In this document: positions 13,155-13,226 of the stretch, piece by piece
Layout of the letters: every line of letters starts with the position of its first letter
Numbering within the stretch: position 1 is the first letter of the stretch
Virus record (IMG/VR): IMGVR_UViG_3300032605_000083
Coordinates: 1 to 33,609 of that record
DNA from: a virus
Strand: one strand, 5' to 3'
Length of the DNA: 33,609 bases
Program-made: the position numbers and the translations under genes
The notes under the pieces: model-generated
Told to the model about the DNA's origin: nothing
The model's input: the letters and a program-made list of their open reading frames with translations, nothing else
Database searches by the model: none

Positions 13155-13226
13155 ATGTGGAATAAACCTACTGCAACAGAAATGCGTTTTGGCTTTGAAG
13201 TAACTATGTACGTAATGAATAAATAA
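13155..13226 (+). CDS. pqqA: PqqA-like coenzyme PQQ precursor peptide
   Basis: A 23-codon ORF starting MWNKP and containing GFEVTMY. PqqA peptides of beta- and gammaproteobacteria are 22-24 residues, usually start MW-x-KP and carry the invariant Glu and Tyr in E-V-T-x-Y. Here these are Glu15 and Tyr19, the two residues that PqqE cross-links as the first step of PQQ synthesis. A strong AGGAG (13143-13147) lies 7 nt before the ATG. The gene sits between two leftward genes but on the opposite strand, with a terminator 50 nt downstream, like a moron. No pqqB-E homologue is seen here, so host enzymes would be needed. The likely role is an auxiliary metabolic gene feeding PQQ-dependent methanol dehydrogenase. 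The peptide match is direct; the role is inference. Confidence 0.85.
   Translation: [23 protein letters not shown]

Follow-up and report, generated by a model that had tools for sequence, protein, structure and literature searches.

The locus described here raises the question whether a virus carries a gene for PqqA, the PQQ precursor peptide, and what such a gene might contribute to infection. PQQ is made from PqqA, one peptide being destroyed per PQQ, and PqqE together with PqqD joins a Glu and a Tyr of the peptide (PMC7678222, PMC9851590). The window, i.e. the whole stretch of 33,609 nucleotides that was analysed (IMG/VR virus record IMGVR_UViG_3300032605_000083), contains a short open reading frame in the following setting.

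12740-13093, minus strand: RusA-like Holliday junction resolvase, left neighbour (PHROG 34, PF05866)
13094-13154, plus strand: 5' region, expected promoter site of pqqA (no good sigma-70 match)
13141-13147, plus strand: ribosome binding site AAAGGAG, 7 nt 5' of the ATG
13155-13226, plus strand: pqqA, PQQ precursor peptide of 23 amino acids and TAA stop codon (translation, profile matches)
13278-13306, plus strand: intrinsic terminator with an 11-pair stem, a 7-nt loop and a T-rich tail (folding)
13289-13789, minus strand: right neighbour of 166 amino acids, its 3' end overlapping the pqqA terminator
14240-14944, minus strand: calcineurin-like metallophosphoesterase (PHROG 221, PF00149)

The initial annotation had termed the 23-codon frame a pqqA-like peptide gene and proposed a profile search. 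The peptide matched Pfam PF08042 with 37.7 bits (E = 1.9e-9, cut-off 21.1 bits) and the NCBIfam equivalog TIGR02107 with 39 bits (E = 4.8e-10, cut-off 20). Both scores are well above the curated cut-offs and bear the proposal out. The frame has its own start, stop and ribosome site, and its length is within the range of PqqA peptides (about 22-30 amino acids). Glu15 and Tyr19, the E-x-x-x-Y pair that is cross-linked by PqqE, are present; Asn3 and Thr6 are variant residues. Methylophilaceae PqqA (PF08042/TIGR02107) likewise has 23 amino acids, an MW-x-x-P start and the common core, but the phage copy differs in being single and standing alone, without pqqBCDE. A frame that arose by chance is excluded because hundreds of IMG/VR contigs and six cultured methylophages, which represent several unrelated lineages, encode the peptide, and because it is under purifying selection (see below). 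Judged by its sequence, 13155-13226 is a true pqqA gene. The immediate surroundings were also described correctly: the strong AGGAG is part of the AAAGGAG at 13141-13147, the gene runs on the plus strand between two minus-strand neighbours, as claimed for a leftward operon, and the 11-pair stem at 13278-13306 provides the terminator of its own.

Is the carrier a phage? The window encodes endolysin, structural, ejection, recombination and replication proteins. The longer contig IMGVR_UViG_3300031759_000056 (42,578 bases) is 100% identical to the window over 2.5 kb around pqqA; further genes on it encode a terminase, a portal protein, a GroES-like protein and a 2OG-Fe(II) oxygenase. The gene content thus places the window pqqA in a bona fide phage genome, and the ejection protein points to a tailed phage of the podovirus type. 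The GroES-like protein and the oxygenase are located at 3128-3538 and 6275-6778 of the longer contig, beside portal and terminase. The right neighbour of pqqA had no match in PHROGs or Pfam; a relative with 58% identity is located 2.2 kb from pqqA in another viral record (L088).

The distribution of the gene was examined by a tblastn search with the window peptide against 50,697 phage records. The 12 matching records were Venkman, P19250A, MEP301, MEP401, MEP402, four Melnitz variants, ctXG6705 and two contigs labelled 'Acinetobacter phage'. Thus, pqqA was present in six of six cultured methylophages (P19250A, Venkman, MEP301, MEP401, MEP402 and Melnitz), no other cultured OM43/LD28 phage being named in the isolate literature examined. 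The environmental genome ctXG6705 was the sole non-cultured match among the 50,697 records that is a real phage. The 'Acinetobacter phage MD-2021a' matches were rejected as phage, the larger contig being bacterial with ppk and pqqBCDE next to the match. This contig, CAKLQF020000010.1, carries bacterial ppk and pqqABCDE and looks like mislabelled host DNA. Apart from these two contigs, every peptide-bearing phage record was a methylophage or an environmental genome. A Pseudomonas-type PqqA query returned the same phage records and no Pseudomonas phage; a Methylobacterium-type query returned weak Melnitz matches only.

None of the deposited cultured methylophage genomes annotates pqqA, nor does that of ctXG6705. 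At this position they have either no feature or a hypothetical ORF that runs in the opposite direction; spurious reverse-strand ORFs of this kind are deposited over pqqA at 2461-2556 in Melnitz and 2067-2195 in ctXG6705. PHROGs contains no PqqA family. Its 23 codons, the missing PHROG family and the absent or misplaced annotation explain why pqqA was overlooked, and the expectation that gene callers would miss so short a gene proved correct.

In IMG/VR at least 588 stretches encode the peptide (588 of 600 retrieved). A degenerate core pattern yielded 44 distinct peptides among 118, among the matches listed. One PqqA core match was on IMGVR_UViG_3300023174_000036, a virus record of 356,312 bases, which suggests that giant phages of methylotrophs may carry pqqA, too. 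The clade of the window was assembled via helicase and a structural protein, i.e. not via pqqA, and 10 of its 50 records have the gene. The carriers are close relatives (helicase identity about 66% and above); distant relatives are devoid of it, as are a few close ones represented by short contigs. Conservation in related phages, on which the initial annotation had staked its claim, was therefore found in the window clade as well as in IMG/VR at large. Five of seven Venkman-like and two of 13 MEP401-like metagenomic records carry pqqA; the absences are partly from fragments, yet some contigs are near genome size (e.g. 42.8 kb). With pqqA missing in 2/7 and 11/13 of these records, universal presence in methylophages was rejected. 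Since near-genome-size records are among those without it, the gene appears dispensable in some lineages.

Which hosts do these phages infect? The proposed methylotrophic host is well supported, by the company of methylophages and environmental genomes in which the peptide is found and by the phosphoesterase at 14240-14944. The nearest phage protein of the latter is from methylophage MEP301 (74.7%), followed by pelagiphages. In MEP301 and in window-clade relatives the phosphoesterase gene is at most about 2.3 kb from pqqA. Phages devoid of pqqA, too, commonly have this phosphoesterase, and the proximity of the two genes probably reflects the phage backbone; a specific linkage was therefore rejected. 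The nearest relatives of the MEP301 phosphoesterase are themselves from pelagiphages, and Melnitz is reported to be closest to the pelagiphages Mosig and HTVC008M (PMC10580990). Eight of eight SAR11 phages related to MEP301 or Melnitz had no PqqA match at E <= 10, whereas MEP301 and Melnitz matched. As far as these genomes tell, the presence of pqqA follows the host and not the phage relatives that infect SAR11.

In Methylophilaceae pqqA was detected in 142 of 142 genomes, at a mean of 4.4 and a range of 1-12 copies; three copies are present in most of those OM43-like genomes (1.2-1.3 Mb) that were located. It is a known trait of this family to have multiple pqqA genes but each of the remaining pqq genes only once (PMC4109929). 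Several copies of pqqA next to usually single other pqq genes indicate that PqqA dosage matters to the host. The streamlined OM43-type genome tested also had a strong match for methanol dehydrogenase. Many phage PqqA peptides are identical letter for letter to a Methylophilaceae PqqA. The nearest host and the nearest viral copy of the window gene both differ from it at 5 of 69 nucleotides, and over so short a stretch the nearest neighbours are uninformative about its origin.

These similarities bring up the question whether the phages merely acquired host copies in repeated recent events that matter little for infection. The many Methylophilaceae pqqA genes would be easy to capture, host and viral copies are equally close to the window gene (5 of 69 differences each), and part of the Venkman-like and MEP401-like lineages are devoid of pqqA. 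However, neutral carriage fits poorly with a gene that is present in six of six isolates and absent from SAR11-infecting relatives, and with purifying selection between distant phages (pS 0.57, pN 0.10). We consider such passive carriage unlikely.

Selection was evident in every set of sequences compared. In 69 distinct viral sequences pN/pS was 0.07; as this set was picked by similarity to the peptide, sets based on isolates or on other genes are less biased. There, pN/pS was 0.18 (cultured isolates and window), 0.12 (records chosen by helicase or terminase) and 0.11 (window clade). Trp2, Pro5, Ala7, Glu9 to Glu15, Thr17 and Tyr19 were invariant in the 69 sequences. The most variable sites, 3, 4 and 6, are all outside of the cross-link core, and the Gly-Phe-Glu-Val/Ile-Thr core is kept in the viral copies. 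From these substitution patterns we conclude that purifying selection maintains viral PqqA as a peptide. With a host-derived metabolic function under selection in phages (pN/pS 0.07-0.18), pqqA is a probable auxiliary metabolic gene.

Does the peptide feed PQQ synthesis or interfere with it? Bound to host PqqD/PqqE, a short peptide could have a competitive or regulatory effect and slow or redirect PQQ synthesis, e.g. to stop methanol oxidation. In a decoy one would expect the cross-linked residues to be lost, yet Glu15 and Tyr19 never vary, the core is retained and several phage peptides are identical to a host PqqA at every position. Interference of this kind is not favoured and appears very unlikely.

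The initial annotation had assumed that only the precursor is supplied, and the phages tested agree with this. Each of 39 viral records has exactly one pqqA. No pqqE was found in 38 phage or viral records and the window; both hosts tested have it. None of 31 phage records contained a methanol dehydrogenase-type PQQ alcohol dehydrogenase, in contrast to the hosts, and the window has no methanol dehydrogenase. A phage endowed with more of the PQQ pathway was rejected on these grounds.

What then may be the role of a lone pqqA? We think it likely that it is a substrate-supply gene of a tailed phage of Methylophilaceae, carried as an exchangeable cassette and sustaining PQQ and methanol oxidation. 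Because one PqqA is destroyed per PQQ, it would be natural to supply the peptide and not the enzymes. A small pqqA cassette would be exchanged between phages, and infection would add extra PqqA to the PqqB-E enzymes of the host at a time when host transcription is expected to fall. Host PqqD/PqqE would cross-link Glu15 and Tyr19 of the phage peptide, and a host protease, PqqB and PqqC would then complete PQQ. The extra PQQ could keep new or existing methanol dehydrogenase (XoxF/MxaF) charged, and the infected cell would go on drawing carbon and electrons from methanol after its transcription fails. In this chain we infer expression during infection, processing by the host enzymes, a rise in PQQ and a benefit in phage yield. 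As the host already has several pqqA genes, one further copy may matter little unless it is strongly expressed by the phage. Possibly the PQQ serves another PQQ-dependent host enzyme or an antioxidant role instead of methanol dehydrogenase: PQQ has further uses, and the phages analysed have no methanol dehydrogenase of their own. The hosts, however, are C1 users, and the OM43-type genome tested has the strong methanol dehydrogenase match; we regard these other destinations as highly improbable. The initial annotation was thus right on the gene, and its reading of the role, supply of precursor for methanol oxidation, is probably right.

Substrate supply would make pqqA an unusual type of auxiliary gene, one that encodes a consumable raw material and not an enzyme. 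In cyanophage psbA and similar auxiliary genes a phage-borne host gene likewise encodes a product that is consumed or turned over in infection; psbA, however, encodes a photosystem protein and pqqA the raw material of a cofactor. Among the bacteria that consume methanol in coastal seas and lakes, OM43 and LD28 are important, and a viral gene supplying the methanol dehydrogenase cofactor would link infection directly to methanol carbon flux. Furthermore, pqqA offers an easy sequence-based means of recognising phages of PQQ-dependent methylotrophs, and it provides a link to host switches between SAR11 and OM43 that can be put to the test. The role is open to experiment now, since phages and hosts are in culture, e.g. 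Venkman or Melnitz with OM43 strain H5P1 and MEP401 with FZCC0133.

The idea of phage pqqA itself is not new, since PqqA and a methanol dehydrogenase were reported on one viral population of Lake Baikal, VP_266, and enhanced methanol oxidation was proposed (Coutinho et al., 2020; PMC7678222). Like the window, VP_266 has a phage-borne pqqA and is a predicted Methylophilaceae phage. It is a T4-like metagenomic contig with methanol dehydrogenase, whereas the window is podovirus-like and without it. Viral pqqA, pqqD and pqqE from reservoir sediments were listed as phosphate-solubilising auxiliary genes (PMC13188868, 2026); in the accessible part of that report pqqA is, in contrast to the window gene, filed under phosphate solubilisation with no methylophage context given. 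Four methylophage isolate papers do not mention phage pqqA, and PQQ appears in one of them only as a medium component (PMC9004378); the H5P1 medium contains 1 nM PQQ, which might mask an effect of the phage gene. On the generality of phage pqqA nothing was found in the open-access literature searched. The present finding therefore exceeds the initial claim in that pqqA is common to all cultured methylophages yet unannotated, and it falls short of it in that a phage precedent is published and the functional effect is deduced from sequence.

How would the phage copy be expressed? A motif resembling a ribosome site precedes 87 of 88 viral pqqA copies. A recognisable promoter was not found directly upstream of the window gene (13094-13154), and neither a TATAAT box nor a 5' hairpin was seen there. 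A TATAAT box lies upstream of 28 of 81 viral copies and a perfect hairpin (arms of 7 or more) upstream of 25 of 81; for other viral upstream regions the counts are 13 and 12 of 206. The Fisher values of about 1e-7 to 1e-8 overstate this enrichment because the sequences are mutually related, ORFs were called by a crude procedure and there is a slight difference in base composition (G+C 28% vs 32%). In many viral copies the TATAAT box is followed by a hairpin close to where the transcript is expected to start, and then by the ribosome site and pqqA; L040, L072, L086, L548 and L551 are examples with a perfect 5' hairpin. We infer that viral pqqA often has a promoter of its own and that the 5' hairpin would protect the short mRNA. 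The gene is antisense to both neighbours in 44 of 77 viral loci, and a simple terminator follows in 28 of 77. In the window both features coincide, the unit being antisense to both neighbours with its own terminator, as in a moron cassette. MEP301 and Venkman are reported to represent two different viral groups; at this locus the DNA similarity between them is recognisable over pqqA and some 54 nt 5' of it, and nowhere else.

The 5' hairpin of many viral copies and a possible small RNA after the window gene might mean that the conserved element is an RNA or DNA signal that overlaps a PqqA-like frame by accident. No Rfam match was obtained, substitutions are mostly at synonymous sites and the flanks are unconserved between lineages. 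The codon pattern already largely refutes such a signal, and its probability seems negligible. Returning to a peptide-coding cassette for substrate supply, a broader proposal is that PqqA supply is a common, overlooked strategy of phages of Methylophilaceae. A solitary pqqA cassette with its own transcription, frequently preceded by a stabilising 5' hairpin, would have been acquired separately by unrelated lineages as part of a switch to methylotrophic hosts, and phages would raise marine and freshwater methanol oxidation by providing the consumable peptide of a host cofactor pathway. For this we see an even chance.

Downstream of the window gene an extended -10 box, TGGTATAAT, starts directly after the stop codon, and a palindrome, ATAAACTAGTTTAT, is located at 13246-13259 between this box and the terminator. 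The segment 13227-13309 (plus strand) could give rise to an RNA some 65 nt long; alternatively, it could belong to a terminator that works in both directions. In clade relatives TATAATAGGGG hairpin terminators are located 3' of pqqA.
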